Of a stretch of 64,000 nucleotides of DNA, positions 2,925 to 21,714 are shown piece by piece (positions within the stretch are counted from its first letter, which is position 1; the number at the start of each line of letters is the position of its first letter). This DNA comes from Pedobacter sp. PACM 27299 (GTDB lineage Bacteria > Bacteroidota > Bacteroidia > Sphingobacteriales > Sphingobacteriaceae): the NCBI RefSeq assembly GCF_001412655.1, contig NZ_CP012996.1:2294001-2358000 (forward strand), given 5' to 3'. Under the pieces are notes generated by a model that searched no databases, had not been told where the DNA came from, and saw only the letters and a list, made by a program, of their open reading frames with translations. Position numbers and translations under genes: made by a program.

Positions 2925-3503
2925 ATGGAAAACTACGCTAAGCGCTCCGACTTAGAATTGTTACAGCTCCTCCAGCTTGGTGACCGTTTAGCTTATACAG
3001 AAATATTCGAAAGGTATAAGTTTATTCTGCATCACCATGCGATAAAAAAACTCCCAAATAGAGAGGAGGTGAAGGATATTGTGCAGGAAGTGTTTACCAT
3101 GCTTTGGACAAAAAAAGAAGGTATAAATATCCATACCAACCTTTCGGGATACCTATATACCTCTTTAAGGCATAGCATTCTGGATCATTTTTCAAGACAG
3201 AAGGTCCGTGATAAGTATGTGGATTCTATGAAGAACTTTGTCGGCCAGGGAACCGTGTTACCTGATTACCGCATCAGGGAAAAGCAATTATCCGCAGCTA
3301 TAGAAGCAGAAATTAACCTGTTACCTGAAAAAATGAGAATTGTTTTTGAACTGAGCAGGAAAACTTACCTCAGTCATAGCGAGATCGCCACTCAATTAGG
3401 GATCTCTGAAAAAACAGTCAACAGGCAGATTTCTAATGCTTTAAAGATACTGAGGTCGAGGTTAGGCCTGTTCGCTTACCTGGCTTTTCTGATCAGGTAT
3501 TAA
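2925..3503 (+). CDS. ECF sigma-70 factor, FecI-like (Bacteroidota expansion family), locus 1
   Basis: The 192-residue protein has an ECF sigma region 2 (~25-90, with DIVQEVFTMLWTKKE) and a region 4 helix-turn-helix (~130-185, ending SEIATQLGISEKTVNRQISNALK). Regions 1 and 3 are absent, as in all ECF factors. It directs RNA polymerase to promoters of its own regulon. The fecR-like anti-sigma gene follows after 94 bases, then susC and susD, the standard cell-surface signalling arrangement. It is therefore expected to be held inactive by the FecR at 3598 until the SusC transducer binds its ligand. The start at 2925 has no better in-frame alternative. Confidence 0.93.
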   Translation: MENYAKRSDLELLQLLQLGDRLAYTEIFERYKFILHHHAIKKLPNREEVKDIVQEVFTMLWTKKEGINIHTNLSGYLYTSLRHSILDHFSRQKVRDKYVDSMKNFVGQGTVLPDYRIREKQLSAAIEAEINLLPEKMRIVFELSRKTYLSHSEIATQLGISEKTVNRQISNALKILRSRLGLFAYLAFLIRY

Positions 3504-3597
3504 ATAAAATAAAAAAAATATTCATTTCATCTGCATGTTCGGCTCGACTTAACCGTCTTGGTATTGGATTGGGGGGAAAAAACAATCTGAAATTAAT

Positions 3598-4755
3598 ATG
3601 CATGAAGCAGATTATGAAAAATTATTAGCTCAATATAAAGCAGGTAAATGCACTGAAGAAGAGATCGCTTTTATAGAAAGCTGGTACCTTGTTTATCAGG
3701 AGGGCACATTGTACGAGGATTTATCTTTAGGGGAAAGAACAGCTGATCTGGATATGGTAAGGGCCGAACTTGGTCTTGAATATCCAAATGCTCATGAATA
3801 TCCTGAGCCAAGAAAGGTTAGCCTTTGGCCTCGACTGGTTTCTGCTGCTGCGATCTTCATCGTAGTTGGGGCAGGCCTATATTTTTACCTAGATAAAAAC
3901 AGTCCGGCTGTTCCGGTCTACGCCAATGACATTCCTTCTAAAGGAAAAAAAACCGCTACGCTAACCCTGGCAAGTGGTGAAAAAATCGAATTGTCTGATG
4001 CGAAGGTTGGTAAATTGGCAGATCAGTCGGGGATTGAAATCTCTAAGACTAAAGACGGACAATTAATTTATGAAATAAAAGATCAGGCAAGTGCTGAGGC
4101 TAATCAATGGAATACACTTTCTACAGCCAAAAGTCAGACCTATGTGATACAGCTTCCTGACGGAACGAAAGTCTGGTTAAATGCAGCCTCTGTATTGAAG
4201 TACCCAGCTTCATTTGCAAAATTGAAAAACAGAGATGTGGAATTGAATGGGGAAGCCTATTTCGAGGTGGCCAAAGATCCGCTTCACCCATTTGTAGTCA
4301 AAACTGCTACACAGGAAGTTGAAGTATTGGGAACTCATTTTAATATCAATAGTTATACTGATGAAAATAGTACAAGAACTACACTCCTGGAAGGAGCGGT
4401 GAAGGTTAGTTTGGTAAATGGCATTCTTTCAAAGGTGATTAAACCTGGCGAGGAAGTACTGAATATACAGCAGCAGCTACAGGTAAGGCCAGCAAACCTC
4501 AAAGATGCGGTCGCCTGGAAAACAGGATACTTTAGATTCAATAATGAAAACCTGGAAAGCATCATGCGCCAGATCTCCAGATGGTACGACGTAGATGTAA
4601 TCTATTCGGGTAATCGCAGCGAGCTTGCTGCCCTTACTTTCTGGGGTATTGTTTCCAAAGAGAAAAATGTTTCTGAAGTGCTAAAGATGATCGAACGTGC
4701 AGAGAAAGTGAAGTTCAGTATTAATGGCCGCACCATAACGGTCATGTCCAATTAA
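3598..4755 (+). CDS. FecR-type anti-sigma factor, locus 1
   Basis: This 385-residue single-pass inner-membrane protein has a short cytoplasmic N-terminus (~1-79) that would bind the sigma factor, one membrane helix (~80-98, VSAAAIFIVVGAGLYFYL) and a periplasmic FecR domain. The FecR core is visible at ~180-235 as LPDGTKVWLNAAS and GEAYFEVAKD. The C-terminal ~75 residues (YFRFNNENLESIMRQISRWY) are the DUF4974 domain, which in the family contacts the STN domain of the partner transducer. It sits between sigma factor and susC and has the family's normal length. Confidence 0.93.
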   Translation: MHEADYEKLLAQYKAGKCTEEEIAFIESWYLVYQEGTLYEDLSLGERTADLDMVRAELGLEYPNAHEYPEPRKVSLWPRLVSAAAIFIVVGAGLYFYLDKNSPAVPVYANDIPSKGKKTATLTLASGEKIELSDAKVGKLADQSGIEISKTKDGQLIYEIKDQASAEANQWNTLSTAKSQTYVIQLPDGTKVWLNAASVLKYPASFAKLKNRDVELNGEAYFEVAKDPLHPFVVKTATQEVEVLGTHFNINSYTDENSTRTTLLEGAVKVSLVNGILSKVIKPGEEVLNIQQQLQVRPANLKDAVAWKTGYFRFNNENLESIMRQISRWYDVDVIYSGNRSELAALTFWGIVSKEKNVSEVLKMIERAEKVKFSINGRTITVMSN

Positions 4756-4799
4756 AATCTCCCACCCTTAATTATATAAACCTAAACCAAACCAACCAC

Positions 4800-4829
4800 A
4801 TGAAAAAGAGAAACCACCGCGACCCTTAG
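4800..4829 (+). CDS. nine-codon leader ORF between fecR and susC, locus 1
   Basis: ATG at 4800 encodes MKKRNHRDP and then TAG. The upstream context, AACCAACCAC just before the ATG, resembles a typical susC translation start in this group. An equivalent nine-codon ORF with the same MKK...DP-stop layout is present at locus 2 (23762). Length and start context are seen directly; translation and an attenuator or leader role are inference. Confidence 0.35.
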   Translation: MKKRNHRDP

Positions 4830-4849
4830 CCAGATTCAGATAAATCAGA

Positions 4850-4878
4850 AAACAGGAACGTTCGAACCGTTCCTGTTT
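4850..4878 (+). promoter_or_regulatory. RNA hairpin in the fecR-susC gap, locus 1
   Basis: A perfect 11-bp stem AAACAGGAACG / CGTTCCTGTTT with a 7-base loop lies 21 bases after the leader ORF and about 100 bases before susC. It has only a short T run (TTT then AA), so it may be an attenuator, a weak terminator that lowers susC expression, or a processing or stability site. Confidence 0.6.
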
Positions 4879-4980
4879 AATCCTGATTGGCACAAAATAA
4901 TGAATTAACAAATTTTATGATTACCGGATTGCCTGTAGCCTCTGAAAGCAGGGCATTTCCGGTACAGACCAACATGTCAA

Positions 4981-7900
4981 ATGTATACAAATTTTACAAA
5001 ATATTTTTGTGAGTCTTCGGGCTACAAGGATAATTTCCTAGAGTCAGCAGCGCCAGATCATTATCCGGCAACTGGCTATAGGTTATGGGGGATAAATACA
5101 ATTCTTGTGATGAAATTAATTACAGCGTTATTAATCCTGAGCCTGACTCAGGTGACTGCGGCTACTTTTGCACAGAAAATTACCATGAACAAAACCAACG
5201 CCACTATTGAAACCGTCCTTGAAGAAATAGGAAGGCAAAGTGGCTATGACGTTTTTGTTGGGGTGAAGACCTTAAACAGCGCAAAATCTGTCAGCATCAA
5301 TGTAAAAAATGCAGCAGTAGAAGAGGTGCTGAGACTTTGTCTGGAAGGACAGCAGCTTGATTTCTCTATTGAAAATAAAATCATTGTCATTAAACAGAAG
5401 CAACCTTCACTTCTGGATAAAGTAGCGGCCGTTTTTTCGGGCACTGAAATATTTGGGATTGTGCTGGACAATGATAACAATCTGCTGCCGGGAGCAACGG
5501 TGACCATTAAGGGAAGCAATCGAAGTACGACCACCAATGGGATGGGGCAGTTTAAATTAAAGGATGTTCCGGACGGTGCTATATTACAGATTTCTTTTAT
5601 GGGCTATGTGACCAAGGAAATTAAGGTAACGGAAAATCTATTGGGTGTGAAACTGGAATTGAGCACTTCTAAGCTAGATGAAGTACAGGTGATGGCTTAT
5701 GGAAAAACCAACAGAAGGATCTCTACTGGAAATATTGTAACGATCACTGCGAAGGAACTGGAAAAACAGCCGGTCACCAATCCCTTACTGGCGCTTTCAG
5801 GTAGGGTTGCAGGAATGATCGTGACGCCGACCAATGGTTATGCCGCGAGTCCTGTGAAAGTAGAAATCAGGGGAAGAAAAGCCATCAATCCAGGGTTTGT
5901 GTCTGACCCCCTGTATATCATAGATGGTGTTCCACTCAGTAGTATAGAACTTGGTGTTGGATCTGATTATAACAAAGGTTCGGCAGGTGTGGTGCAAAAT
6001 GGATTTTCTTATACAGGAGGCCAGAGTCCACTGTTTAATATCAGTACCAATGACATAGAAAGTATAGAAGTGTTGAAGGATGGTGATGCGACTGCCATCT
6101 ACGGTTCAAGAGGCGCAAATGGCGTAATTCTCATCACCACGAAAAAGGGAAAAGCTGGAGCAACTACACTTTCAGCGAATACTTCACAGGGACTCAGTTA
6201 TGTGACACAGCGTTACAATATGCTGAACACAGAACAATATCTACAGCTGAGAAGAGATGCATTTGCAAATGATAACATCGTACCAACGGTAGTCAATGCA
6301 CCAGATTTAACGCTTTATGATCCTGCTCGTTATACCGACTGGCAAAATAAACTGTGGGGTAATATGGGTAAAAAAACCAATGCTTCGCTGAGTCTAACCG
6401 GTGGAGATCAGGTAACACAATTCCTGTTCTCCGGTAATTATGCCCGGACGGAAGAGATTGTTTCCAATGGAGGAAACAATCAGAATGCTTCGATGGCACT
6501 TAATCTGACTCATAGTGCTATGGAGCAGAAATTCAGAATCAATGCAAATGTCCTTTATACTTATTCCGCAGTAAAAACCATTGGTACACCTGATGCGGTT
6601 ACTGTGGCACCTAACGGTCCTGATATTTATGCAGAAGATGGCAGTTTGAATTTTAAGGGCTGGGGTAGAGGTCCGGATGGCACCTACTTTCCTTTCGGTT
6701 CCCTGGAATCCGGCTATTTTTCCAATACGAATTTGATGAAAATGGGGGTGAATCTGCATTATCAGCTGGCAAATAACCTTTCTTTAGCTACCAATCTGGG
6801 CTATACGTTTACTTATAACACAAACCGTTTTTTCAACCCGATTTCCAGTATGGATCCACTTAGCAACCCAACTGGTACTGCATTTTCAGGAAACACCAAT
6901 AATTCCAACTGGATTATCGAACCGCAGCTAAATTATAATGTAAACTTATTTGGAGGTGAGTTCAGTGTGTTATTAGGCGCTAGTTTACAAAAAGACGGCA
7001 CTAAAACTGCGGGTATTTATGGTCTTGGTTATGAAACAGACGATTTTTTGGAGAACATTGCGCTGGCTCCTGTTAAATTAATTTATGACAACTCGGGCTA
7101 TTATAAATATGCAGCAATATTTGGCAGGGTCAGTTATAATCTAAAGGATAAATATATCCTGAATATTAATGGCAGAAGAGATGGATCTTCGCGATTTGGT
7201 CCCGGAAAACAGTTTGGTAATTTCGGATCTATCGGAGCAGCATGGATCCTATCAAATGAGAACTGGCTTAAGGATCGACTTCCTGCAATGATCAGTTTTA
7301 TTAAATTGAGAGGAAGCTACGGATTAACAGGCAGCGATGCTGTTGGGGACTATAAGTACCTTACTCAATGGGCAAGTAATACGCCAGGTTCAGTCCCACT
7401 CCCTAATTATAACGGCGTTTCGCCTTTGGTCAGCTTACTGGCAGTAAACCCAGACTACAGATGGCAGGTGGCAAAAAAACTGGAAGGTGCATTAAATTTA
7501 GGTTTTTGGGAAGACCGTGTCAATCTCCAGGTTTCCCGCTATCGTGAACGCATAGGCAATCAGCTAACGGAGTATCCAACCCCACTTTTTAGTGGCTTTA
7601 AAAGTGTAGTTGCCAACTGGCCGGCTTTACTTGAAAATAAAGGCTGGGAGTTTACAGCAGAGATCGAAGCCATCAAAACGGATAAAATAAGATGGAACTG
7701 GAATTTTAACGGCGGTCGGAATACCAATATACTGGCCAGCTACCCAGGAATAGAACTTACGCCCTATGTTAACCTTTTTAGAGTGGGATCATCCCTGAAT
7801 ACCTTGTACCTATTGCATTATACGGGCATAGATCCACAAACAGGGAAATACACATTCGAAGATTATAATAAAAATGGGAGTATTGCCTTCGACAATACCA

Positions 7901-8427
7901 AACAACCGGGTACTGGTGATGATGATCGTTTTGTGGCTCTTGACATGACGCCAAAGTTTTCCGGTGGTTTCGGGACTTCTTTTAGTTACGGGAATTTCAA
8001 TATCAGTACCTTTTTTGAATATAGACAGCAAATCGGTATTAATCCGGATTACAGCAGTTCAAGTTTGTTAGGGAGTATGCACAACCAATCTGCTGATGTA
8101 TTTGGTAACTATTGGAGGAACCCGGGCGATCAGGCCTTATATGCAAAACCAACTACAATATCAGGTGATGATAGTACCAACAGCTTTTTTGCTTCTGATG
8201 GTCAATATCAGGATGCTTCCTATCTGAGAATGAATAATATCTCCTTGGGCTACCAATTCGATAAGAAAATCTCTAAAAAACTGGGTGCAAAATCATTGAA
8301 TGTATACGCCAATGCACAAAATGTTTTTGTGCTGAGTAAAGGAAGGGGCTTGGATCCATCTGTTCAAAACTTTGGAGCGCTTCCACCGGCAAAAGCCATA
8401 GTATTTGGTCTTTCCGTACAATTTTAA
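4981..8427 (+). CDS. SusC/RagA-family TonB-dependent transducer with STN domain, locus 1
   Basis: This 1148-residue outer-membrane protein imports its ligand with TonB energy and signals its presence. In order: an N-terminal extension, an export signal around residues 41-64 (MKLITALLILSLTQVTA...FAQ), an STN signalling domain (~68-140), a carboxypeptidase-regulatory-like beta domain (~155-235), the plug starting after DEVQVMAYG (~240-360, with the SusC motif ATAIYGSRGANGVILITTKKG split over it), and a beta-barrel to the C-terminal FGLSVQF. The STN domain and the upstream sigma/anti-sigma genes mark it as a signalling transducer. Translation could start at ATG 5110 inside the annotated frame, which would shorten the leader. 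The ligand is unknown; the M16 protease downstream hints at a peptide or protein. Confidence 0.93.
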   Translation: MYTNFTKYFCESSGYKDNFLESAAPDHYPATGYRLWGINTILVMKLITALLILSLTQVTAATFAQKITMNKTNATIETVLEEIGRQSGYDVFVGVKTLNSAKSVSINVKNAAVEEVLRLCLEGQQLDFSIENKIIVIKQKQPSLLDKVAAVFSGTEIFGIVLDNDNNLLPGATVTIKGSNRSTTTNGMGQFKLKDVPDGAILQISFMGYVTKEIKVTENLLGVKLELSTSKLDEVQVMAYGKTNRRISTGNIVTITAKELEKQPVTNPLLALSGRVAGMIVTPTNGYAASPVKVEIRGRKAINPGFVSDPLYIIDGVPLSSIELGVGSDYNKGSAGVVQNGFSYTGGQSPLFNISTNDIESIEVLKDGDATAIYGSRGANGVILITTKKGKAGATTLSANTSQGLSYVTQRYNMLNTEQYLQLRRDAFANDNIVPTVVNAPDLTLYDPARYTDWQNKLWGNMGKKTNASLSLTGGDQVTQFLFSGNYARTEEIVSNGGNNQNASMALNLTHSAMEQKFRINANVLYTYSAVKTIGTPDAVTVAPNGPDIYAEDGSLNFKGWGRGPDGTYFPFGSLESGYFSNTNLMKMGVNLHYQLANNLSLATNLGYTFTYNTNRFFNPISSMDPLSNPTGTAFSGNTNNSNWIIEPQLNYNVNLFGGEFSVLLGASLQKDGTKTAGIYGLGYETDDFLENIALAPVKLIYDNSGYYKYAAIFGRVSYNLKDKYILNINGRRDGSSRFGPGKQFGNFGSIGAAWILSNENWLKDRLPAMISFIKLRGSYGLTGSDAVGDYKYLTQWASNTPGSVPLPNYNGVSPLVSLLAVNPDYRWQVAKKLEGALNLGFWEDRVNLQVSRYRERIGNQLTEYPTPLFSGFKSVVANWPALLENKGWEFTAEIEAIKTDKIRWNWNFNGGRNTNILASYPGIELTPYVNLFRVGSSLNTLYLLHYTGIDPQTGKYTFEDYNKNGSIAFDNTKQPGTGDDDRFVALDMTPKFSGGFGTSFSYGNFNISTFFEYRQQIGINPDYSSSSLLGSMHNQSADVFGNYWRNPGDQALYAKPTTISGDDSTNSFFASDGQYQDASYLRMNNISLGYQFDKKISKKLGAKSLNVYANAQNVFVLSKGRGLDPSVQNFGALPPAKAIVFGLSVQF

Positions 8428-8439
8428 TCTGATAATGAC

Positions 8440-9891
8440 ATGAAGATGAAAAGAAATCTAAAATTATATAGTGTAATTATGCTGACAGTGGCTTTGGCTT
8501 CCTGTAAAGACCTGGTCAGCATCCCGGAGCCGACAGGTTCTGTGACCACAAAAAAAGTATTTTCTACGGATGGACAGGCGAACTCTGCAATGGCTGGCGT
8601 CTATACCCGCATGATCAACAAAACTTATGAAGGAACCACAGGAATGCAGGGATTTGCAGCGGGGATGTCTACCATTTTTGGAGGGATGTCTGGTAATGAG
8701 TTGATTACGACCTCCACAGCAAATGCCTATTATGGCTTTAATACGAATAATCTGTTTACGAATGATGGCTCAGTAGCAATGATCTGGGGGACCGCTTATG
8801 ATGCCGTTTATGGTTGTAATGCCGTAATAGAAGGGATTGAAGCTTCAGTTTCCGACAAATTGCACGATAATGTCAGAAATAGACTGATTGGCGAAGCCAA
8901 ATTTGTCCGTGCATTTTCTTATTTCTACCTCCTGAATTTTTTTGGCGATGTGCCTATGGCACTGACGATAGATTTCAATAAAACCGCCACCATGAAAAGG
9001 ACGCCAAAAGCGGAGATTTACGCGCAGCTGATTAAAGATCTGCTGGATGCGAAAAACCGGTTGCCTGAAAATTTTTCTGGTACAGATGGCCAAAGGATTT
9101 TACCCACTAAATGGGCTGCAACGGCATTATTGGCCAGGGTCTATTTATATACAGGAGATTACTCAAATGCTGCAGCTCAGGCTACTGAATTGATCAGTCA
9201 ATCTGCATTATTCAAACTGCCGGAAGATTTGAACAGTGTTTTCTTAATCGATAGTGAGGAAGCCATCTGGCAATTGCAGCAAGGCGATCTTCCTGCAAAT
9301 GGTAAAGCGACTCCTGAAGGATTTACGCTGGTTGCCAACAAAGCTACCATTCTTAACGACCGTCCTTTTTTCCACATGACCGATGAATTAAAAAATGATT
9401 TTGAGGCAAATGATCAGCGTAAAATAGCCTGGACCTGGAATGAAACTACTGGAGGTAAAGAAATTTACTACCCTTACAAATATAAAGTCGGCACCTATAA
9501 TGCACGTACTGGTAATATGACCGAGTATTATGTGGTTTTAAGGTTGGCGGAGCAATACCTGATCCGTGCAGAAGCACAGGCACTTGCCAACATGCCATTA
9601 GGCTCGGCAATTGCCGATCTGAATGTGATCCGTCATAGAGCCGGCCTGGATGATCTGCCTGCCGGACTTTCTAAATCAGCAGTCATCCTGGCAATTGAAC
9701 ATGAAAGAGAGATCGAGCTTTTTGCAGAATGGGGACATCGTTTTTTTGACCTCAAGAGAACAGGACGTGCAGAAAATGTGCTTTCGATATTGCCAATTAA
9801 GCAGCCCTGGAGAAGTGACCAGTTAATTTATCCTATCCCAAAAACAGAAATTATTGCCAACCAAAACCTGACGCAGAATCCAGGTTACTAA
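8440..9891 (+). CDS. SusD/RagB-family outer-membrane lipoprotein, locus 1
   Basis: The 483-residue protein begins with a lipoprotein signal ending ALASC (Cys about residue 22), so it is lipid-anchored and expected on the cell surface as the lid over SusC. The SusD fold is recognisable from the TPR-like N-terminal half (RLIGEAKFVRAFSYFYLLNFFG) and from the C-terminal ERE-EL-FAEWGHRFFDLKRTG segment. It begins 12 bases after susC, so the two are co-transcribed and form one uptake complex. An alternative start is the second Met at 8446. Confidence 0.93.
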   Translation: MKMKRNLKLYSVIMLTVALASCKDLVSIPEPTGSVTTKKVFSTDGQANSAMAGVYTRMINKTYEGTTGMQGFAAGMSTIFGGMSGNELITTSTANAYYGFNTNNLFTNDGSVAMIWGTAYDAVYGCNAVIEGIEASVSDKLHDNVRNRLIGEAKFVRAFSYFYLLNFFGDVPMALTIDFNKTATMKRTPKAEIYAQLIKDLLDAKNRLPENFSGTDGQRILPTKWAATALLARVYLYTGDYSNAAAQATELISQSALFKLPEDLNSVFLIDSEEAIWQLQQGDLPANGKATPEGFTLVANKATILNDRPFFHMTDELKNDFEANDQRKIAWTWNETTGGKEIYYPYKYKVGTYNARTGNMTEYYVVLRLAEQYLIRAEAQALANMPLGSAIADLNVIRHRAGLDDLPAGLSKSAVILAIEHEREIELFAEWGHRFFDLKRTGRAENVLSILPIKQPWRSDQLIYPIPKTEIIANQNLTQNPGY

Positions 9892-9904
9892 TTTTTAACA
9901 TACC

Positions 9905-9983
9905 GCCGTCATCCCTGGTAAAATAGGGGGAATACCTGCAGTAAAACTGCGGAGCAGGAACCCCTTTGTCTCAAGATCACGGC
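9905..9983 (+). promoter_or_regulatory. branched RNA-structure candidate between susD and the ABC ATPase gene
   Basis: Several nested complementary segments lie in the only sizeable gap of the operon. An outer GCCGT (9905-9909) / ACGGC (9979-9983) pair encloses CCCT / AGGG and GGGG-(4)-CCTGC (9927-9939) / GCAGG-(2)-CCCC (9954-9964). A GCAGT-AAA-ACTGC hairpin (9938-9950) would compete with the CCTGC/GCAGG stem. It has no T run and resembles no riboswitch I recognise. It may tune expression of the downstream genes relative to susCD. Confidence 0.4.
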
Positions 9984-10021
9984 TGAACCAAAACAATAAC
10001 TTATCAAACTCAATAAAAACT

Positions 10022-10945
10022 ATGGAACCAATCGTTCGTATCAGCGGGCTTTCGCACCGTTATAGCACCAGCTGGGCTATACGTGACATCAATTTCGAAA
10101 TTCCAAAAAGTGGGATTGTTGGCCTTCTGGGCTCCAATGGTGCCGGTAAATCTACTACCATGAATATCCTTTGCGGGGTACTCACACCGACCACAGGAAA
10201 GGTGATCATCAATGGCATTGACCTGAGTAAGCAGCCGGAATTGGCCAAGCAGGAAATCGGCTTTTTGCCGCAAACTCCGCCATTGTACATGGACCTGACT
10301 GTGGATGAATACCTGAGGCATGCAGCGATTTTACGTTCAATAGAAGATAAACAATTAAAATCAGCACTGGAGGAGGTCAAGGAACGCTGCGGTCTAACAC
10401 ACATCAGCAAAAGACTGATCAAGAATCTATCTGGAGGTTATAAACAGCGGGTCGGCATCGCTCAGGCCATTGTCCATCAGCCGAAATTAGTAGTATTTGA
10501 TGAGCCTACAAATGGCCTGGATCCGAACCAGATTCTGGAAGTCCGTGGACTGATTAAAGACATTGCCACAGAACGTGCGGTTATTCTTTCTACCCACATC
10601 CTAACCGAAGTTCAATACCTCTGCAAAGACATCGTCATGATTGAAAGTGGAAGGATTGTATTTGCGGATACGATGGAAGCTTTCGACAATTATATCGCCC
10701 CGCACAGCATGCTACTGACCCTGGAAAATGCGCCTTCAGAAGCCGCATTGATGGCTATAGAAGGGCTGATCAGGATAGAATTCCTCACGGAAAAACAATT
10801 ACGGATCTATTTCAATGGCGACCGCAGTATTTCTGAAGCTGTGGTGCTGGAAAGTGCAAAACAGGGATGGCGCTTAAGGGAGCTCAATATGGAGAAAAAC
10901 TCTTTAGATGAAACTTTTGCCCAACTGTCCAAAATCTCTAAATAG
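10022..10945 (+). CDS. ABC transporter ATP-binding protein, GldA/CcmA-like
   Basis: The 307-residue protein has one ABC domain in the first ~215 residues: Walker A GSNGAGKST (~40), signature LSGGYKQR (~138), Walker B VVFDEPTNGLDP and the H-loop STHIL. The ~90-residue C-terminal extension ends LDETFAQLSK, as in ATPases that energise ABC-2 type permeases such as GldA/GldFG or drug exporters. The permease gene follows after 3 bases and a second permease lies at 18648. One ATPase for two permeases suggests a heterodimeric membrane part. Substrate and direction are unknown. Confidence 0.9.
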   Translation: MEPIVRISGLSHRYSTSWAIRDINFEIPKSGIVGLLGSNGAGKSTTMNILCGVLTPTTGKVIINGIDLSKQPELAKQEIGFLPQTPPLYMDLTVDEYLRHAAILRSIEDKQLKSALEEVKERCGLTHISKRLIKNLSGGYKQRVGIAQAIVHQPKLVVFDEPTNGLDPNQILEVRGLIKDIATERAVILSTHILTEVQYLCKDIVMIESGRIVFADTMEAFDNYIAPHSMLLTLENAPSEAALMAIEGLIRIEFLTEKQLRIYFNGDRSISEAVVLESAKQGWRLRELNMEKNSLDETFAQLSKISK

Positions 10946-10948
10946 CTT

Positions 10949-13221: not shown

Positions 13222-15858
13222 ATGAGCTTTATAACCGATAAACAAACGATCGATGATCTGAATATCTTCGCCAAATCGGGGAGCGATTCGATCTATCATA
13301 TTTTTAATAAAACCTATACGCAGGGTGCTGCCGCCCTGCTCGATGAGCTGTTCAGGAACCCACTTTCAGATGAAAAACTGATCAATGAACGTGTAGCTAT
13401 ACTGCGGTATTTTCAGGAAAGTAAACTGGCTTTTCCTTTACAGGGGAATCGTTTTGAGGAGGCAGAAAGGTACCTTGCCAATACCGAGCCGCGAAGCCGA
13501 CTGTCTAATCAGGGTTTTAGCATGGCCGATTTCCAGGCTGCCGCACAAAGTGTAACGGCATTAGTGGAGATCTTGAAGGGACTGAAGGCATTTATGCAGG
13601 ACCTTCAGCCTAAAGTAGCGGGAAATCCTTATGGAGCAGCAGTAGAAAAGGTTTTGGACCTGCTCAGTTCAAGAGCGCTGGAACTCGTTTTTACCGACCA
13701 TGGGAAAGGCAAAATCTCTTCGGGGAAAATCGTAGAGTACGACAATATTTTAAGGTTCCAGCAGCATGACCTGCTGGAAAAAATACTCCAGCATATTTAT
13801 CACCTGGATGTGTATTGTTCTATCGCCAAAGTGGCAGAAGAACGTGGGTACAATTTTGCAACCGCCTTAAAAAGGGATGCCAATCGCTTAGATTTACAGG
13901 GACTATACCATCCTCTGCTGCACAAGCCAGTGGCGAATTCCTTAACGATGACACCGGATAGTAACATCGTTTTTCTAACCGGGGCCAATATGGGGGGGAA
14001 ATCTACCTTCATGAAGTCGCTGAGTATTGCCATGTATCTGGCACACCTGGGTTTTCCTATTGCGGCAAAAAATATGGAATTCTCTGTTTGCGATGGGATG
14101 TATACCACCATCAATTTACCGGATAATCTGGCCATGGGTGCCAGCCATTTTTATGCAGAAGTGCTCCGGGTAAAGAAGGTAGCGGTAGCCCTCGGCGAAG
14201 GGAAAAACCTGTTTGTCGTTTTTGATGAACTGTTTCGGGGAACTAATGTGAAGGATGCCTACGAAGGAACCATTGCCATCATGGAAGCCTTTGCCAGTAA
14301 ACCACATTCGCTGTTTGTGATCTCTACGCATATCATGGAAGCAGGGAAAGTATTACAGCAGAAATGCAGCAATATGATTTTCCGTTACCTGCCTACGCGT
14401 ATGGAAAATGGCAAACCTGTATATACCTATACCCTAAAAGAAGGGATTACTGACGACCGCCATGGGATGATCATCATTAATAATGAAGCCATTTTAGAAC
14501 TGATCAGCCATGAAAAACAAACCAGAAAAATACAAAGCAATTTTAATGCAGATAAACAAACGGCAGACGACTTAAACCTGCAGGGGAAATTCAAACAGCA
14601 ATCTATTTACAGTTTATTTAACCACCTGCAAACCAGAGGTGGCGAAAAGGAACTGGAAGGTATGTTTGCGCGACCATTAACTACTCCGGAGCTGATCAAT
14701 AAAAGAAGTTCGGTTTTTGCGTTCTTTCAGCAGCATCAGGTGATCTTTCCGGTAATCCGTTCACAGGTAGAATCCATGGAAGATTACTTGTCGGGCGGTG
14801 CAGGAGCAGCTTTACCAGCGGTAGCCTGGAGCATCTTTGCTAAAAAGCTCAAACAAGTCCTGTTTCATGATGCCGAATTGCTGCAATTACAGGCAGGGCA
14901 GTCAGTTACTATTGAGGTGCTGCAGTCTTTCCGGGATTTCTTTAAGGAATTGTCGGGGAAGGGGAATGTTTCCGTTTACCAAAAGGAACTGGATCACGCA
15001 GCGCAGATTTTTAAGGACAGGAGGCTGGAGGACATTTTAAATGCGCCGGATGAACAGCTTTCTTTAAAGCAGCTGATCCGCAATGACTATGTGATTCGCC
15101 ATGCGATGATGACACAGATGGAAATCCTGTTGAAATTAATTTATGAGCTGGATGTATTTGTTGGTATAGCTGCGGTTGCAGCTGAACAAGGTTTCGTGTA
15201 TGCGGAGGCTTTACCAGCGGAACAGATGCTGCTGGATATGGAAGGCTTCCGTCATCCGGGATTAAAAAATGGAATCAGCAACAGCCTGCATTTAACTGCT
15301 GATCGCAATGTCTTGTTCTTAACCGGTGCTAACATGGCCGGCAAATCCACCTTTATGAAATCTATGGGGATTGCGGTTTACCTGGCGCACATGGGTTTTC
15401 CTGTAGCGGCAAAAAGAATGAGGTTTTCCGTGAAGGATGGGCTGTTCTCTTCCATCAATGTTTCTGATAATCTGGACATGGGCTACAGCCATTTTTATGC
15501 GGAAGTACTGCGCACAAAAACGGTAGCACAGGCGGTCAACGAATCACTCAATTTATATGTGCTGTTTGATGAGCTTTTTAAAGGAACCAATGTAAAAGAT
15601 GCTTATGATGCCACGCTGGCAGTGACACAAGCTTTTGCGGAAAACAGGAACAGTTTCTTCGTGATCTCTACACACATCATTGAAGTAGGGGAAGCCTTAG
15701 GTAAAGCTTGTCAGAATGTGCAGTTCTCTTTCTTACCAACGGTGATGAAAGATGGCGTACCTACTTATCCATATACCCTGGCAGCTGGAATTACCAGTGA
15801 CAGACAGGGCATGATCATCATTGAAAATGAAAAAATTGTTGACCTCATTCGTAATTAA
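13222..15858 (+). CDS. tandem-duplicated MutS-like ATPase
   Basis: The 878-residue protein consists of two homologous halves (~1-435 and ~440-878). Each has a helical MutS core/lever region and a MutS ATPase domain. Walker A motifs are GANMGGKST (254-262) and GANMAGKST (702-710). Each is followed by the conserved segment SHFYAEVLR, a Walker B (FVVFDELFRGTNVKDAY; YVLFDELFKGTNVKDAY) and FVISTHI. The mismatch-recognition domain of MutS, the MutS2 Smr domain and the clamp are absent, so mismatch repair is unlikely. MutS ATPases work as dimers, and this chain may form the dimer within one molecule. It lies 2 bases after the permease gene, inside an uptake/transport operon, which is an unexpected place. 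The family call is firm; the function is unknown. Confidence 0.88.
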   Translation: MSFITDKQTIDDLNIFAKSGSDSIYHIFNKTYTQGAAALLDELFRNPLSDEKLINERVAILRYFQESKLAFPLQGNRFEEAERYLANTEPRSRLSNQGFSMADFQAAAQSVTALVEILKGLKAFMQDLQPKVAGNPYGAAVEKVLDLLSSRALELVFTDHGKGKISSGKIVEYDNILRFQQHDLLEKILQHIYHLDVYCSIAKVAEERGYNFATALKRDANRLDLQGLYHPLLHKPVANSLTMTPDSNIVFLTGANMGGKSTFMKSLSIAMYLAHLGFPIAAKNMEFSVCDGMYTTINLPDNLAMGASHFYAEVLRVKKVAVALGEGKNLFVVFDELFRGTNVKDAYEGTIAIMEAFASKPHSLFVISTHIMEAGKVLQQKCSNMIFRYLPTRMENGKPVYTYTLKEGITDDRHGMIIINNEAILELISHEKQTRKIQSNFNADKQTADDLNLQGKFKQQSIYSLFNHLQTRGGEKELEGMFARPLTTPELINKRSSVFAFFQQHQVIFPVIRSQVESMEDYLSGGAGAALPAVAWSIFAKKLKQVLFHDAELLQLQAGQSVTIEVLQSFRDFFKELSGKGNVSVYQKELDHAAQIFKDRRLEDILNAPDEQLSLKQLIRNDYVIRHAMMTQMEILLKLIYELDVFVGIAAVAAEQGFVYAEALPAEQMLLDMEGFRHPGLKNGISNSLHLTADRNVLFLTGANMAGKSTFMKSMGIAVYLAHMGFPVAAKRMRFSVKDGLFSSINVSDNLDMGYSHFYAEVLRTKTVAQAVNESLNLYVLFDELFKGTNVKDAYDATLAVTQAFAENRNSFFVISTHIIEVGEALGKACQNVQFSFLPTVMKDGVPTYPYTLAAGITSDRQGMIIIENEKIVDLIRN

Positions 15859-15859
15859 T

Positions 15860-18637
15860 ATGTTATTTAAATATAAACCTTTAAGCCTGCTTTTTATTGC
15901 AGGATTATGTATCCCATTCGCATGTAAAACGCAATTGGATACCCAGGCGCTGCCATTAGATCCGCAGCTGCGTACAGGAAAATTGTCAAACGGTTTTACC
16001 TATTATATCCGTAAAAATAAAACACCAGAAAAAAGGGTCATGATGTACCTTGCTGTTAAAGCAGGCTCTATCCTGGAGACGGATCAGCAAAGGGGAGTGG
16101 CTCATTTTATAGAGCACATGAGCTTTAACGGAACAAAGCATTTTCCTAAAAAAGCACTTTCTGAATATCTGGAGAAATCTGGTGTGCGGTTTGGTGCAGA
16201 TATCAATGCGACTACGCTTCCTGATGAAACCGTATATCAGCTGCCTTTGCCCTCAGATAATCCAGAACTGCTGAGCAATGGTTTACAGATGATGCGCGAT
16301 TGGGCGCAGGATGCCAACATAGAACCGGAAGATGTAGAACGTGAGCGTCATGTTATTCTGGAAGAAAGACGCGTTCGCCAGGGAATTACACAGCGTTTAC
16401 AGGAACAAACTATTTCGCTGTATACCAACCAGTCGCGTTATGGCTCCCGTTTGCCAATCGGTACGGAAGAAGTACTGCTAAAGGTAACACCAGAAGAAAT
16501 CCTCAGTTTTTATAAAGATTGGTATAGACCGAATCTGCAAGCCTTATTGGTGGTAGGGGATATTGATGTGGATCAGATGGAAAAAGAGATCAAGGCTAAA
16601 TTCTCTGACCTTAAAAACCCTGAAAAGGAAAAGGAACGTACCGTTTATCGCGCAGAACTTACAGGTAAAAACCAATATATGCAATTTATAGACCCGGAAT
16701 TGGGTGGTGTTTCCCTGGAAATAGTCATGAAACAAAGGGGAAATACAGTCATTACGGCAGCAGATTATCGGGCAGATCTATTAAAAAACCTATTCTCTCA
16801 AATGTTGGCTGCAAGGTTCAGGCAACTACCTCTTGTTGGGGTGGCACCAATCATGGGTGGACTGAATTCTTTTTATGTGAATATTACGACTAAACCAGCA
16901 GAAATGGAACCTGCTTTGAAGAGTGTATGGCTGGAACTCCGTAAAATAGAAGAACAAGGGTTTACAGAAGCTGAGCTGGACCGGATGAAGAAAAGTTATT
17001 TGCTGAAGCTGTCCGAAAGTCTACAGGAAAAAGATAAAACCGCTTCGGAAATCCTGATCAAACCTTATTTGCAAAATTTCCTGATTGGCAGTGCTGCAAC
17101 TGGCATCGCCAAAGAATATGAATTGACAAATGAGCTGCTCCCAGAGATCAGTTTAAAGGAGGTCAATGCAATGATGAAAGCTTACCTGAAGCAAACGGAT
17201 AGAGACATCGTTGTGAAGTCATCAGCGATTAATAAAGTGTTTTTGCCAACGGAAGCAGCCATCCAAACCTGGATTGAAGACGTTTACGCGCAAAATCTAC
17301 CGCCTTATGTGGATGATGTATTGAGCCTTCCGCTACTTAAAAAGGAACCTAAAGCGGGAAAAATCACCGCGATTGAAGACGTATCACAAGCTGGATTGCA
17401 AAAAATCACGTTGAGTAATGGGGTCAAGGTGATCCTGAAGAAAACAGATTTTCAGAATAATCAGGTGCTCTTTAAAGGGTTTTCTGAGGGTGGCGCATCC
17501 TTATCTTCTGATGAAGATTATCAAAATGCAGTAAGTGCGGCAAATATTATTGCTGCCGGTGGTGCCGGTAATTATGATGCTTTGCAGCTGGGAAAATTAT
17601 TCGCAGGAAAGCAGGTGCAGCTGATTCCATTTATTCTGGATAACTACCAGGGTTTTAGTGGCAGCACAACGAAAGAGGACTTGCCGGCAACGCTGGAATT
17701 GATGTATGCTTACTTTACAGAACCGCGTAAAAGTGAAGAAGCCTATCAAACATTGATCGGCAGAACCCGGGAAGCCTTCGCCAATAAAGCGAATGATCCC
17801 AATCAGGTATTTGCAGATACCGTAAACCTGGTGCTGGCCAGCAATCATGTGCGCAGAAGACCGCAAAGCATGGCAAAAATCGCTTCGATTAACCTCGATA
17901 AAGCTTTGAAGATTTATCACGAACGCTTTGCAGATGCCTCAGGTTTTACCTTCGTTTTTGTTGGAAATATAGAAGAAAAGACGATAAAACCATTGCTGGA
18001 GAAGTATCTGGGCAGCTTACCTGCTACAGGAAGGAAAGAAAAGGCCCGCGATCTGGGGATTAATATTCCTTCAGGCCATATTGCTAAAACAGTATACCAC
18101 GGCGCTACGCAAAAGGCAAGTGTAATGATGGTCTATGCTGGTGATTTTAATTATAATTTCGAAAATACCATCCAGATGAATGCCCTTGCTGATGCGCTGA
18201 ATATCAGCCTCAATAAGCGGCTTCGCGATCAGGAAGGCGGTACTTATACCCCCAATGTGCAGATGAGCATGACCAAGTACCTGAAAAACAGATTTAGCCT
18301 GACGGTCTCTTTTGATTGTGCCCCGCAGAATGTAGAAAAGCTCATTGCTTCGGCACAGGATGAGATCAATAAAATGAAAGTTAAGGGACCTTCAGCTGAA
18401 AACCTGCAAAAGTTTAAGGTCGCCCGTAAGCTTTCGCTGCAAACCGGATCTACTAACAATAATTTCTGGTTGGATTACCTTCTTGGTCAGGAGATGAATA
18501 AAGAACCTTTGACTGAGTTTTATAACTACGATGCAGTATTAAATAAAATTACGGTGAAATCTGTGCAGCAGGTTGCGGCAACTTTTATTCAGGATAAGAA
18601 TTACATCAGGCTAGTCTTGATGCCAGAAAAAAAATAA
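15860..18637 (+). CDS. M16-family (insulinase-like) zinc metallopeptidase
   Basis: Using ATG 15860, one base after the MutS-like stop, gives 925 residues beginning with a signal peptide that ends FAC at Cys21, a weak lipoprotein box. It is therefore exported and perhaps lipid-anchored. The inverted zinc motif HFIEH is at 82-86, and the third ligand is probably a Glu in ERERHVILEE (~160). Four M16 repeats fit the length, and the second half (~500 onward, LSNGVKVILKKTDFQNN) is the non-catalytic copy, as in pitrilysin-type enzymes. These enzymes cut peptides small enough to enter a closed chamber. Beside SusCD and an ABC system it probably trims imported or exported peptides. A start at 15821 would overlap the previous gene by 38 bases and is less likely. 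Confidence 0.92.
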   Translation: MLFKYKPLSLLFIAGLCIPFACKTQLDTQALPLDPQLRTGKLSNGFTYYIRKNKTPEKRVMMYLAVKAGSILETDQQRGVAHFIEHMSFNGTKHFPKKALSEYLEKSGVRFGADINATTLPDETVYQLPLPSDNPELLSNGLQMMRDWAQDANIEPEDVERERHVILEERRVRQGITQRLQEQTISLYTNQSRYGSRLPIGTEEVLLKVTPEEILSFYKDWYRPNLQALLVVGDIDVDQMEKEIKAKFSDLKNPEKEKERTVYRAELTGKNQYMQFIDPELGGVSLEIVMKQRGNTVITAADYRADLLKNLFSQMLAARFRQLPLVGVAPIMGGLNSFYVNITTKPAEMEPALKSVWLELRKIEEQGFTEAELDRMKKSYLLKLSESLQEKDKTASEILIKPYLQNFLIGSAATGIAKEYELTNELLPEISLKEVNAMMKAYLKQTDRDIVVKSSAINKVFLPTEAAIQTWIEDVYAQNLPPYVDDVLSLPLLKKEPKAGKITAIEDVSQAGLQKITLSNGVKVILKKTDFQNNQVLFKGFSEGGASLSSDEDYQNAVSAANIIAAGGAGNYDALQLGKLFAGKQVQLIPFILDNYQGFSGSTTKEDLPATLELMYAYFTEPRKSEEAYQTLIGRTREAFANKANDPNQVFADTVNLVLASNHVRRRPQSMAKIASINLDKALKIYHERFADASGFTFVFVGNIEEKTIKPLLEKYLGSLPATGRKEKARDLGINIPSGHIAKTVYHGATQKASVMMVYAGDFNYNFENTIQMNALADALNISLNKRLRDQEGGTYTPNVQMSMTKYLKNRFSLTVSFDCAPQNVEKLIASAQDEINKMKVKGPSAENLQKFKVARKLSLQTGSTNNNFWLDYLLGQEMNKEPLTEFYNYDAVLNKITVKSVQQVAATFIQDKNYIRLVLMPEKK

Positions 18638-18647
18638 CATTCAAGAC

Positions 18648-20933
18648 ATGAAGAAAATCATACAGATAGCCAGACTGGAACTCAGCCTGCTATTTTATTC
18701 CCCAATTGCATGGTTGCTGATGATCATACTCTTTGTACAGATGAGTGTCGATTTTACAGCAGCGCTCCCTCCTTTAGAAAAAGGAGGTAACTTCTCTTTT
18801 TTAACCAGGGATCTCTTTACGAATCCTAACGCGCTGGGACTGCTGAGCCGGATTTTAGATAGTTTATACCTGTACATCCCATTGATCACCATGGGCATCA
18901 TCAGCAGGGAAATCAGTTCTGGCAGTATCAAACTGCTCTATTCTTCTCCGGTAAAACTGAGCCAGGTGGTATATGGGAAGTTTGCAGCGATGCTGGTTTA
19001 TAACCTGGTCATTATAGGCGTAATGACCTTGTTCGTACTGGCTGGGATTACATTTATCCCTGCTTTTGACTATCCGCATATCCTGGTTGCTTTGTTTGCT
19101 GCATTTTTATTGCTCACTGCTTATGCCGCTATCGGGATTTTTGTATCGAGTTTAACCACTTACCAGGCCGTTGCAGCGATCAGTACTTTTGTACTGCTTG
19201 CCTTTATGAACTATATTGGAAAGGTAGGGCAGGAGTACGATGTGATCAGGGATTTAACGCATAGTCTTTCCATGCCGACTCGTGCAGCACGCATGATGGC
19301 CGGCCTGCTGAATAGCAGGGATGTGATTTATTATTTTGCAATTACTGGAATGTTCCTTGCTTTTACCATCACCAAGCTGAAGCTGGAAAGGAAATCAACA
19401 TCAGTTTTGCAGCAGGTATTCAGGTATACAGGGATTGTTGTGATTGGGTTAGCCATTACCTATGTCAGTTCAAGGCAGCCGATGATTGCGTATTATGATG
19501 CTACCGGGACTAAGGTGAATACCATTACCCGCGCCAGTCAGGAGATCTTGAAAAAGATGGGTGATGAGCCTGTTGAGCTGACTACTTACATCAATGGAAT
19601 GGATGGCTCTTACTGGGAGATTACTCCAGCAAAACGCATTTCAAATATTTCCCGCTGGGAGCCTTATTTACGGTTTAAACCCAACTTAAAGTTGAAATGG
19701 GTTTATTATTATGATAGCATTCCCGGGATGACTGCCTCGCTCAAAGAGTACAATAAGACTTTTGATGAAGCCGTTGTACAACTGGCAAAAATGCAGAAAT
19801 TAAATCTTCGGGATTTTAAGAGGCCGGAACAAATCAAGAAAGAAATAGACCTGGCAGGTGAAAATGCGCGTGCCGTGATGCAGTTGAAATATAAAGGTAA
19901 GACTACTTTTCTGCGTACCTTCCCTGATCCTCAATTCTGGCCAAATGAAGAAGAAACTGGTGCCGCATTAAAGAGGCTGATACAACCTATTCCCAAGATC
20001 GTTTTTGCAACTGATGGTTATCAGCGCAGTATTGATAAGTTAGGCGACAGGGATTATCAGATGCTCATTAACGATAAGCTGAATAGATCTTCCATGATCA
20101 ATCAGGGCTTTGATATAGATACCGTTGCGTTAGAAAAGTCAGCCATTCCTGCCGATATTGCTGCTTTGGTGATTGCGGATCCGAAAGTGACCTTTAGTGC
20201 TGCAGCAAAGGCTAGACTTCAACAATATATTGCCGCGGGAGGCAACCTGATGATCGTTGGCGAGCCAGGTAAACAGCAGGTGATCAATCCGCTGCTGGAA
20301 TCCCTTGGTGTTAAAATGGGGAACGGAATGCTTGTTCAGCACAGCAAAGATTTTTCGTATGATCTGGTGACGCCTGCATTAGCGCCAGGATCTGTGGCCA
20401 TGGATCCGAAACTACAGCACTTTTTTCAGCAAAGAGCCATTGTAGCCATGCCGAGTGCCGGTACTTTAAGCTACGAAGAAGGCGGGGCTTTTGCGATTCA
20501 TCCTTTATTGATGACCGATGCGCAAAGCAGCTGGGTCAAAAAGGGAAAGTTTGTGCTGGATTCTGCCGCCTTAACCGTTGATTCGAAATCAGGAGATGAA
20601 CAGGGCTCCTTTCCAACGGCATTAATGCTGACCAGACAGGTAAGCAGTAAAGAACAGCGCATCATCGTCGCCGCAGATGCGGATTTTTTCAGTAATGCAG
20701 AGGCAGGAAGACGCAACCTTGGAACGTTGAACAGCTATTTTGCCACGAGAATATTCAGCTGGTTCAGCTATGGGGAATTTCCTGTGGATGCAAGCCGTCC
20801 TTTTCCTAAAGATAACAGCACCACACTCACCAAAGGCAGTGTAAAAACAATGCAGGTATTGTATTATGGTATTATCCCAGGAATCATGTTCCTCTCCGGG
20901 ATGATGATTTTAATCCGAAGAAAACGTAAATAA
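18648..20933 (+). CDS. ABC-2 permease fused to GldG-like domain, copy 2
   Basis: The 761-residue paralogue of the protein at 10949 has the same order: an ABC-2 permease with about six helices (~1-255), a GldG-like extracytoplasmic domain (~290-720), a final helix and an RRKRK tail. The first ~25 codons are almost identical between copies (both begin MKKIIQIARLELSLLFYSPI). The copies diverge in the first extracytoplasmic loop (here PPLEKGGNFSFLTRD) and carry a longer insert near residue 370 here. Starting 10 bases after the M16 stop, it belongs to the same operon and could pair with copy 1 around the single ATPase. Confidence 0.85.
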   Translation: MKKIIQIARLELSLLFYSPIAWLLMIILFVQMSVDFTAALPPLEKGGNFSFLTRDLFTNPNALGLLSRILDSLYLYIPLITMGIISREISSGSIKLLYSSPVKLSQVVYGKFAAMLVYNLVIIGVMTLFVLAGITFIPAFDYPHILVALFAAFLLLTAYAAIGIFVSSLTTYQAVAAISTFVLLAFMNYIGKVGQEYDVIRDLTHSLSMPTRAARMMAGLLNSRDVIYYFAITGMFLAFTITKLKLERKSTSVLQQVFRYTGIVVIGLAITYVSSRQPMIAYYDATGTKVNTITRASQEILKKMGDEPVELTTYINGMDGSYWEITPAKRISNISRWEPYLRFKPNLKLKWVYYYDSIPGMTASLKEYNKTFDEAVVQLAKMQKLNLRDFKRPEQIKKEIDLAGENARAVMQLKYKGKTTFLRTFPDPQFWPNEEETGAALKRLIQPIPKIVFATDGYQRSIDKLGDRDYQMLINDKLNRSSMINQGFDIDTVALEKSAIPADIAALVIADPKVTFSAAAKARLQQYIAAGGNLMIVGEPGKQQVINPLLESLGVKMGNGMLVQHSKDFSYDLVTPALAPGSVAMDPKLQHFFQQRAIVAMPSAGTLSYEEGGAFAIHPLLMTDAQSSWVKKGKFVLDSAALTVDSKSGDEQGSFPTALMLTRQVSSKEQRIIVAADADFFSNAEAGRRNLGTLNSYFATRIFSWFSYGEFPVDASRPFPKDNSTTLTKGSVKTMQVLYYGIIPGIMFLSGMMILIRRKRK

Positions 20934-20934
20934 T

Positions 20935-21714
20935 ATGGACCATTTTTTAGAAAGTTTCAGCGTAGCATTTCTACTCACTATAGCCCGTTATTTTGTCATT
21001 GCAGGTATCTTTTTTTTAGTTTTTTACCTGCTCTTTCCTAAAAGCCTGCTGCGAAATAAAATTCAAAGCAGGCTGGCCGGCAAGCTCGATTTTATACGGG
21101 AAATTCTGCACTCTTCTGTATCCAGTGCAATGTTGGCTATTACCGCCATTATTGCTTTGTCCGATGGACTGCGGCCTTACACTTTAGTTTATACCGATAT
21201 TTATGAATATCCACTGATTTGGGTTCCGGTTAGCCTGTTGCTAAGCCTGCTCGTGCATGACGCTTATTTCTACTGGATGCACCGGATCCTGCACCATAAA
21301 AGTTTGTTTAAGCTGACGCATCTGGTGCACCACAAGAGTACCAACCCTTCTCCCTGGACTTCCTATTCTTTTCATTTTCTGGAAGCAATAGCAGAAGGAG
21401 GGGTGATGATTGTACTGGTTTTTGTGATGCCATTACATCCTTTAACCCTCGGATTGTTTGCCCTTTCCTCTTTTGTGATCAATGTATATGGCCATCTGGG
21501 CTACGAAATTATGCCGAAAGGATTCCGAAACTCCTTCCTGTTCGAGATCGTCAATACTTCCACCTTCCATAATTTCCACCATTTGAAATTTAAAGGTAAT
21601 TACGGACTGTACTTAAGGGTATGGGATCGATGGATGAAGACAGAGCATCCAGATTATGTGAAGGAATACGACAGGATTCAACAGCAGCGTTTTGGAGAAT
21701 CCAGGCCGCAATGA
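20935..21714 (+). CDS. fatty acid hydroxylase / sterol desaturase family membrane protein
   Basis: The 259-residue integral membrane protein has the histidine boxes of the di-iron hydroxylase superfamily: HDAYFYWMH (108-116), HH (120-121), HLVHH (129-133) and FHNFHH (~210). About four membrane helices surround them. The family hydroxylates or desaturates lipids, sterols or carotenoids at the membrane. It begins 1 base after the permease stop and is the last gene of the long operon, ahead of a terminator. Its link to the transport and protease genes is unclear; it might modify a membrane lipid or a lipidated product. Confidence 0.88.
   Translation: MDHFLESFSVAFLLTIARYFVIAGIFFLVFYLLFPKSLLRNKIQSRLAGKLDFIREILHSSVSSAMLAITAIIALSDGLRPYTLVYTDIYEYPLIWVPVSLLLSLLVHDAYFYWMHRILHHKSLFKLTHLVHHKSTNPSPWTSYSFHFLEAIAEGGVMIVLVFVMPLHPLTLGLFALSSFVINVYGHLGYEIMPKGFRNSFLFEIVNTSTFHNFHHLKFKGNYGLYLRVWDRWMKTEHPDYVKEYDRIQQQRFGESRPQ

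Follow-up and report, generated by a model that had tools for sequence, protein, structure and literature searches.

A SusCD operon joined to an inner-membrane transporter module

The 64,000-nucleotide stretch of the Pedobacter sp. PACM 27299 chromosome analysed here (NZ_CP012996.1, positions 2,294,001 to 2,358,000 of the forward strand; hereafter the window, numbered from its first letter) carries ten co-directional open reading frames (ORFs) at 2925-21714 on the plus strand, in which a sigma/FecR-controlled SusCD pair is followed by an ABC ATPase, fusions of a GldF-like permease with a GldG-like domain (GldFG), a tandem MutS-like ATPase (MutSL), an M16 metalloprotease and a fatty-acid hydroxylase family protein (FAH). 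Comparison with related loci in Bacteroidota shows that the core of this gene set is SusCD with ABC-GldFG, commonly accompanied by M16, and that MutSL is a frequent, separable accessory. We tentatively propose, with a probability of roughly 0.45, that the genes encode a TonB-dependent system that senses and takes up a polypeptide or a ligand carried on one; it would resemble the Fus system in its working and combine SusCD with an ABC transporter of the ABCA/NosF/GldA class in its build.

The Pfam domains follow each other in the order ECF sigma-70, FecR, SusC, SusD, ABC_tran, a fusion of ABC2_membrane_2 and ABC_transp_aux, MutS_III/MutS_V twice, M16, a second ABC2 and aux fusion and FA_hydroxylase. 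A first-pass annotation of this DNA had described ten co-directional genes with gaps of at most 225 bases, which the ORF listing, Pfam and NCBIfam bear out: the intergenic gaps are 94, 225, 12, 130, 3, 2, 1, 10 and 1 bases if M16 begins at the ATG at 15860. The longest ORF of the latter gene starts at the TTG at 15821, a start that would overlap MutSL. The features are as follows.

2698-2723, plus strand: terminator-like hairpin upstream of the operon (10 pairs, 6 of them G-C, T tract)
2925-3503, plus strand: ECF sigma-70 factor (TIGR02985, 133.2 bits, cut-off 126.4)
3598-4755, plus strand: FecR-type anti-sigma/sensor protein (PF04773, PF16344)
4800-4829, plus strand: candidate 9-codon mini-ORF MKKRNHRDP at the fecR-susC junction (predicted from sequence only)
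4850-4878, no strand assigned: inverted repeat at the fecR-susC junction, possible attenuator (hairpin scan, listed on the minus strand with 11 pairs; alignment of close relatives)
4981-8427, plus strand: SusC-type TonB-dependent transporter with STN signalling domain (Pfam; TIGR04056, 638.9 bits, cut-off 368.25)
8440-9891, plus strand: SusD-type lipoprotein (PF14322, PF07980)
10022-10945, plus strand: ABC ATPase of the GldA/NosF/ABCA class (Pfam; GldA 273 bits, below the equivalog cut-off of 402.6)
10949-13219, plus strand: GldFG-like fusion 1, ABC-2 permease block and GldG-like domain (PF12679 and PF09822; hydrophobicity)
13222-15858, plus strand: MutSL, tandem MutS-like ATPase with two units of MutS domains III and V (Pfam; nucleotide motifs conserved)
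15860-18637, plus strand: M16 metalloprotease of PqqL/FusC type, predicted lipoprotein (Pfam, matches to structural relatives; start moved from TTG 15821 to ATG 15860)
18648-20933, plus strand: GldFG-like fusion 2 (Pfam; 58% identical to fusion 1)
20935-21714, plus strand: FAH, optional membrane protein (Pfam)
21778-21805, plus strand: terminator-like hairpin downstream of the operon (12 pairs, T tract)

The two hairpins that flank the ten genes, both followed by T tracts, are the only plus-strand matches with at least 10 pairs in a consensus-based terminator scan, which returned 29 hairpins where shuffling predicts 17.5. A sigma-70-like match ahead of the ABC gene (9895-9924) carries no weight because such matches are fewer than expected (31 found, 42.3 expected), and a Bacteroidota promoter pattern occurs five times in the window (3.87 expected) and nowhere inside the operon.

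SusC carries STN, carboxypeptidase-like and plug domains, and as judged from domains the sigma factor, FecR, STN-bearing SusC and adjacent SusD stand in the canonical order of a SusCD uptake operon. Neither a TonB family member (Pfam, NCBIfam) nor a glycoside hydrolase (Pfam) was found among the ten genes. A further sigma-FecR-SusC-SusD set lies at 47634-56259 of the window, followed by a 506-aa protein whose C-terminal part appears thioredoxin-like when read by eye. Each of the three FecR-SusC junctions that were read in the window has a 9-codon mini-ORF preceding SusC (4800-4829, MKKRNHRDP; 23762-23791, MKKNYKQDP; 49610-49639, MKRIKRNST). An MK- or MR-type mini-ORF is present at 17 of 50 such junctions (three in the window, one in the second operon of this genome described below and 46 in other loci), with a loose pattern that leaves at least 4 of the 17 doubtful; the second operon has none at its FecR-SusC junction. 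The mini-ORF is possibly a leader peptide or attenuator.

The gene order recurs across Bacteroidota

A second complete version of the operon lies on the other strand of the same chromosome. Its products are 39% (sigma), 41% (FecR), 51% (SusC), 55% (SusD), 86% (ABC), 84% (MutSL), 68% (M16) and 83% (FAH) identical to those of the window, and it contains one extra lipoprotein-like ORF of 255 aa after SusD, two relatives of which match DUF4397. Among 99 genomes of near relatives, GldFG within 9 kb and both SusC and SusD accompany all 28 MutSL-pair loci listed (L200, discussed below, being left out of this count), and all 13 genomes with a MutSL pair fall within the 16 that carry GldFG (Fisher test, p 9e-14, relatedness ignored). 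Since few candidates were scored per genome (up to 9 or 10 in this set and two in the 395-genome set introduced below), copy numbers are lower bounds.

A wider scan with a 20-row MutSL alignment and one genome per species yielded 78 named Bacteroidota loci, taken from the best 80 of at least 590 confirmed, a sample weighted to close kin of this MutSL and most of all to Pedobacter. They include Pedobacter, Sphingobacterium, Mucilaginibacter, Chitinophaga, Pseudoflavitalea, Niastella, Confluentibacter, Flavivirga, Aestuariibaculum, Robertkochia and Ancylomarina, as well as Odoribacteraceae, Dysgonamonadaceae, Prevotella and other metagenome-assembled genomes (MAGs) of Bacteroidales. Genes in these loci were labelled by blastp to reference proteins, so that remote SusC or SusD can be missed. 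Of the 64 loci that extend 9 kb or more upstream of MutSL, GldFG was recognised in 62, ABC in 61, SusD in 60 and SusC in 59, and 58 show the fixed order SusC-SusD-(lipoproteins)-ABC-GldFG-MutSL, including L158, whose genes are broken into several ORFs. The median gaps are 11 bases between ABC and GldFG and 5.5 bases between GldFG and MutSL. As exceptions, L110 and L157 have none of the four genes, SusCD was not recognised in L115 and L122, L117 is without ABC and L133 without SusC in the run. The 14 loci with less than 9 kb upstream were not counted; all four genes are seen in L107, L149 and L164, GldFG only in L109, L125 and L146, ABC-GldFG without SusCD in L127 and L131, and none in L106, L116, L118, L124, L137 and L154. 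Among the Odoribacteraceae MAGs, MutSL stands without adjoining ABC-GldFG in L110, L116 and L118, and in L115 and L127, which belong to the same group, ABC-GldFG precedes it.

SusCD pairs are common (77 SusD-like_3 matches in this 6.15 Mb genome), which could favour a chance neighbourhood or hitch-hiking of unrelated genes. However, at that density a random site falls within 4.5 kb downstream of one on the same strand in about 3% of cases (computed for this genome), compared to 58 of 64 loci, and of 15 control loci with lone single-unit MutSL relatives (30-40% identical) one, L084, has co-directional SusCD, with L075 showing SusC nearby on the opposite strand. Chance is contradicted by the conserved gene order and we consider it extremely improbable.

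Loci without MutSL reveal the core

The reverse comparison starts from GldFG. Fusions of this type occur in 16 of the 99 genomes, where 45 of 56 copies lie by MutSL; of the other 11, one is a relic fragment (L183) and ten are copies spread over nine loci (L174-L182), all nine with SusC and SusD. In 395 genomes across the phylum, GldFG is found in 11, MutSL pairs in 3 and single units only in 13, and this set adds nine MutSL-free loci (L187-L194, L197), each with SusC. Pooled, the MutSL-free ABC-GldFG loci carry SusC in 18 of 18 and a recognised SusD in 17 of 18 cases, L197 containing a 496-aa ORF that is SusD-like by eye and was missed by the blastp labels. Left out of the 18 are L183 as a relic, L195, which bears MutSL, and L196, a sigma-ABC-GldFG run cut by a contig end. 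Because the MutSL-free loci keep SusC, SusCD with ABC-GldFG is the core and MutSL the accessory.

The arrangement of these loci varies. All six loci from one genus of another family (five genomes) read sigma-FecR-SusC-SusD-ABC-GldFG-M16, and in five loci (L175, L176, L180, L181, L194) ABC-GldFG lies between sigma and FecR, giving the order sigma-ABC-GldFG-FecR-SusC-SusD; M16 follows SusD in three of the latter (L194, and L175 and L181 when extended as L198 and L199). In L185, GldFG and a MutSL pair stand ahead of FecR-SusC-SusD.

The first-pass annotation had suggested that the downstream genes belong with SusCD in a single system, an idea that would fail if these genes mostly occurred without SusCD. 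The survey across Bacteroidota did not refute it: SusCD accompanies them in 58 of 64 named loci and in 28 of 28 MutSL-pair loci of near relatives, and SusC in 18 of 18 MutSL-free GldFG loci. The idea of a single system survives this check. Ten genes as one obligate unit had to be rejected, as MutSL-free versions exist, M16 is separable (33 of 78 loci), GldFG after M16 is confined to a subgroup (19 of 78) and FAH is optional (11 of 78).

The ABC-GldFG transporter

The ABC ATPase shows a 196-residue match to NosF (120 bits) and a match to ABCA1/ABCA4 (188 bits). According to hydrophobicity, the GldFG fusion consists of a permease block, an extended hydrophilic stretch and a hydrophobic segment at the C-terminus, and its GldG-like domain gives a weak profile match to IFT52 (E 1.9e-5, 62 positions). 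The likeness to NosF/ABCA-class systems lies in the ATPase; in contrast to these, the permease of the operon bears a GldG-like domain and NosD is lacking. With the gliding transporter GldA/GldF/GldG the operon shares an ABC ATPase, a GldF-like permease and a GldG-like domain, but F and G are fused and the scores stay below the equivalog cut-offs (GldA 273 versus 402.6; GldF 73 and 68 versus 288.5; GldG 22.4 versus 389.85, fusion 2 only), for which reason a role in gliding motility was rejected. A separate GldF-like match lies elsewhere in the same genome (G000:C1:1214287-1214844). The second GldFG gene after M16 marks a Pedobacter/Sphingobacterium subgroup. L183 (G026:C18) is a decayed operon copy that kept FAH: some 230 aa from the C-terminal part of GldFG lie beside an intact FAH gene, with MutSL and M16 not recognised alongside.

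We know of no established cargo of GldFG. This, together with the large GldG-like domain outside the permease block and the position next to the sigma factor in five loci, would suit a signalling or mechanical device, in which ABC-GldFG (with MutSL) senses SusCD traffic or drives periplasmic processing and moves no cargo across the inner membrane. As ABC-GldFG follows SusD in most loci and is not placed by the regulators, we judge this explanation unlikely.

MutSL is a pair of unequal MutS-type units

At E <= 0.001, Pfam finds MutS_III and MutS_V in each MutSL unit and, apart from two weak generic AAA matches in the protein, nothing else. The closest MutS-like proteins, from Pedobacter gandavensis and P. 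polysacchareus (L114), are 97% identical. In the N-type as in the C-type, 73 of 74 units (from the window and 73 of the 78 loci) preserve their nucleotide motifs, the exception being L157. In a midpoint-rooted tree of 155 units, from which L144, L151, L154, L158 and L160 were left out, the C-type units (73 rows, made up of C halves from fused genes and of the second gene of split pairs) are split off by one branch (SH-aLRT 95%), fused and split forms are intermixed on both sides of it, and the L157 pair lies outside. By this tree, MutSL is composed of two units that appear anciently distinct, and the C-type branch with the mixing of fused and split forms on both sides suggests an obligate unequal pair.

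MutSL has domains III and V with intact nucleotide motifs in common with MutS, MutS2 and KamC. It differs from them by its tandem units, by scores below the curated cut-offs (207.7 bits for the KamC reactivase ATPase equivalog, which requires 300) and in giving no match to the mismatch-recognition (I), connector (II) or clamp (IV) domain. Mismatch repair was rejected as the default function, given the restriction to domains III and V and the lack of any other DNA-processing gene in the operon, although some role on DNA is conceivable.

Some loci stand apart. L157 (a Prevotella MAG) holds a MutS-like gene pair, 37% identical and outside the main MutSL clades, with a differing Walker A pattern and SusCD not recognised nearby. 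At least five copies of the MutSL module occur in one genome of Pseudoflavitalea rhizosphaerae (L130, L132, L134, L142, L151), and L132 has a further MutSL pair on the opposite strand.

M16 protease and fatty-acid hydroxylase

M16 aligns almost end to end with 9ldy (454 bits), PqqL (6ofs, 241 bits) and FusC (6b03, 165 bits). The zinc motif HxxEH is present in M16 of the window and of all 33 loci (of 78) that carry this gene at most two genes downstream of MutSL, and in all 19 M16 proteins that precede GldFG the signal sequence ends with a Cys, from which M16 is predicted to be a lipoprotein. The protease also lies beside SusCD/ABC-GldFG in 9 of 18 MutSL-free loci, the six of the one genus included. 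L184 (G000:C1:307854-310595) is a third M16 of the same type in this genome (41%), with SusCD not recognised nearby.

FAH lies at most four genes downstream in 11 of the 78 loci and is an optional operon member; it has 27 matches in 22 of 99 genomes, 18 of them away from the operon at 41-66% identity.

Outer and inner parts diverge as partly separate units

Pairwise-identity correlations over 49 loci are high within SusC-SusD (0.72) and within ABC-GldFG-MutSL (0.66 to 0.82; ABC-GldFG 0.82, ABC-MutSL 0.71) and lower across them (SusC-MutSL 0.44, SusC-ABC 0.52), with a mean pairwise identity of 0.30 for SusC versus 0.52 for MutSL. Hence, SusC-SusD and ABC-GldFG-MutSL are two partly independent evolutionary units. 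In a FastTree phylogeny, which left out SusC proteins shorter than 900 aa (12 of 61 loci), the SusC of MutSL loci are scattered among 14 other and 10 GldFG-only SusC with 10 changes, a number that could be too high because the 'other' SusC of L125, L137 and L154 lie downstream of MutSL and may belong to the module. Judged from these trees and identities, outer importer and inner module seem to have recombined with each other. The accessory lipoproteins differ as well (DUF4397 in 20, DUF4843 in 10 and PKD in 10 of 64 loci).

Since SusC partners are diverse and accessory lipoproteins differ, the cargo may vary. Both features, and the many loci that show no M16 (ORFs without a match being classified in part), would agree with a non-peptide ligand such as a glycan, a chelated metal or a lipid, M16 and the other proteases then serving as auxiliaries in envelope turnover. 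The recurrence of M16, and of a Met-zincin and TlpA-type thioredoxins in some loci, speaks against this, and we regard such a ligand as rather improbable.

A model for ligand-sensed uptake

Under the uptake reading that we favour, the STN domain of SusC would signal via FecR to the ECF sigma factor, as its domains suggest, and SusCD would carry the ligand into the periplasm, as is usual for the family. M16, probably a lipoprotein facing the periplasm and with its zinc motif intact, may cut the ligand as FusC cuts ferredoxin. Handling of the product at the inner membrane would fall to the ABC ATPase and both GldFG fusions, permeases with GldG-like domains that are expected to extend into the periplasm. 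MutSL, with two unequal MutS-type units in one chain, would work in the cytosol as an ATP-driven clamp or switch whose target is the transporter or the cargo of the transporter and not mismatched DNA, and FAH may be an optional lipid-modifying add-on. That related gene sets recur in many Bacteroidota makes a real uptake system likely. A bolder extension, which we find possible and rather doubtful, is that a MutS-type ATPase heterodimer was recruited off DNA and serves a membrane transporter as its ATP-driven clamp or switch, in a modular ABC-GldFG-MutSL unit that plugs onto many SusCD importers and would be a general energy or gating module for the uptake of unusual cargo in Bacteroidota.

Several points weigh against the uptake model. 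ABC-2 transporters are mostly exporters, so that import by GldFG is uncertain, and the operon has no TonB gene, unlike Fus. M16 is unseen in 45 of 78 MutSL loci, some of which are truncated at a contig end, and in 9 of 18 MutSL-free loci. Of the 66 M16 relatives in the 99 genomes, 47 are not close to any ABC-GldFG detected in these genomes (surroundings read for G000:C1:307854 only). MutSL is tied to the transporter by linkage and co-divergence only; it stands without ABC-GldFG in L110 and L157, and in L116 and L118 on short contigs. In L200 (G025:C12), a broken MutSL remnant of two fragments (44% and 52%), ABC, GldFG and SusCD were not recognised within the 20 kb read. Cargo, direction of pumping and the role of MutSL are what we infer from these families.

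The prevalence of exporters among ABC-2 pumps could equally point to detoxification, in which SusCD admits an antimicrobial or toxic ligand, M16 destroys it, ABC-GldFG pumps the product or toxin out and sigma/FecR senses it; the five loci with ABC-GldFG between sigma and fecR would suit a role near sensing. However, SusCD is an acquisition machine. Defence families gave partial ATPase matches only: six of the ten proteins were compared to PADLOC models, with such matches for ABC and MutSL and none for the other four, and anti-phage defence was rejected; resistance families were covered by Pfam and NCBIfam only. Hence, we also hold detoxification to be unlikely.

Relation to known systems

The Fus operon of Pectobacterium encodes the TonB-dependent transporter (TBDT) FusA, the TonB homologue FusB, the M16 protease FusC, which cuts ferredoxin in the periplasm, and the putative ABC protein FusD (PMC7593965, PMC6071955, PMC11658791). 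The present operon is alike in joining TBDT, M16 and ABC genes (PMC7593965 and PMC6071955 for Fus) and in an M16 homologous along its length (165 bits to FusC). It differs in that SusC/RagA (TIGR04056) and SusD replace the FusA-type receptor and no TonB is encoded, for which reasons it is not a Fus system by membership, and further in its GldFG-type ABC-2 transporter, sigma/FecR control and MutSL. With SusCD operons under sigma/FecR control it shares sigma, FecR, STN-bearing SusC and SusD in canonical order; here, in contrast, ABC-GldFG-MutSL-M16 forms the inner-membrane and cytosolic half, and no glycoside hydrolase is present.

No title or abstract opening describing the gene set was found among the matches listed from the open-licence full-text literature, and the available portion of the main text of PMC10434189 on the iron stimulon mentions none of M16, insulinase, zinc protease, MutS or gliding. 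As far as these literature searches reach, the system is new as a combination and built from known kinds of parts. It provides a repeated, testable gene set for the steps that follow import by SusCD, widens the notion of TonB-dependent uptake coupled to M16 processing in the direction of Bacteroidota and suggests that a conserved MutS-like ATPase pair serves outside DNA repair.

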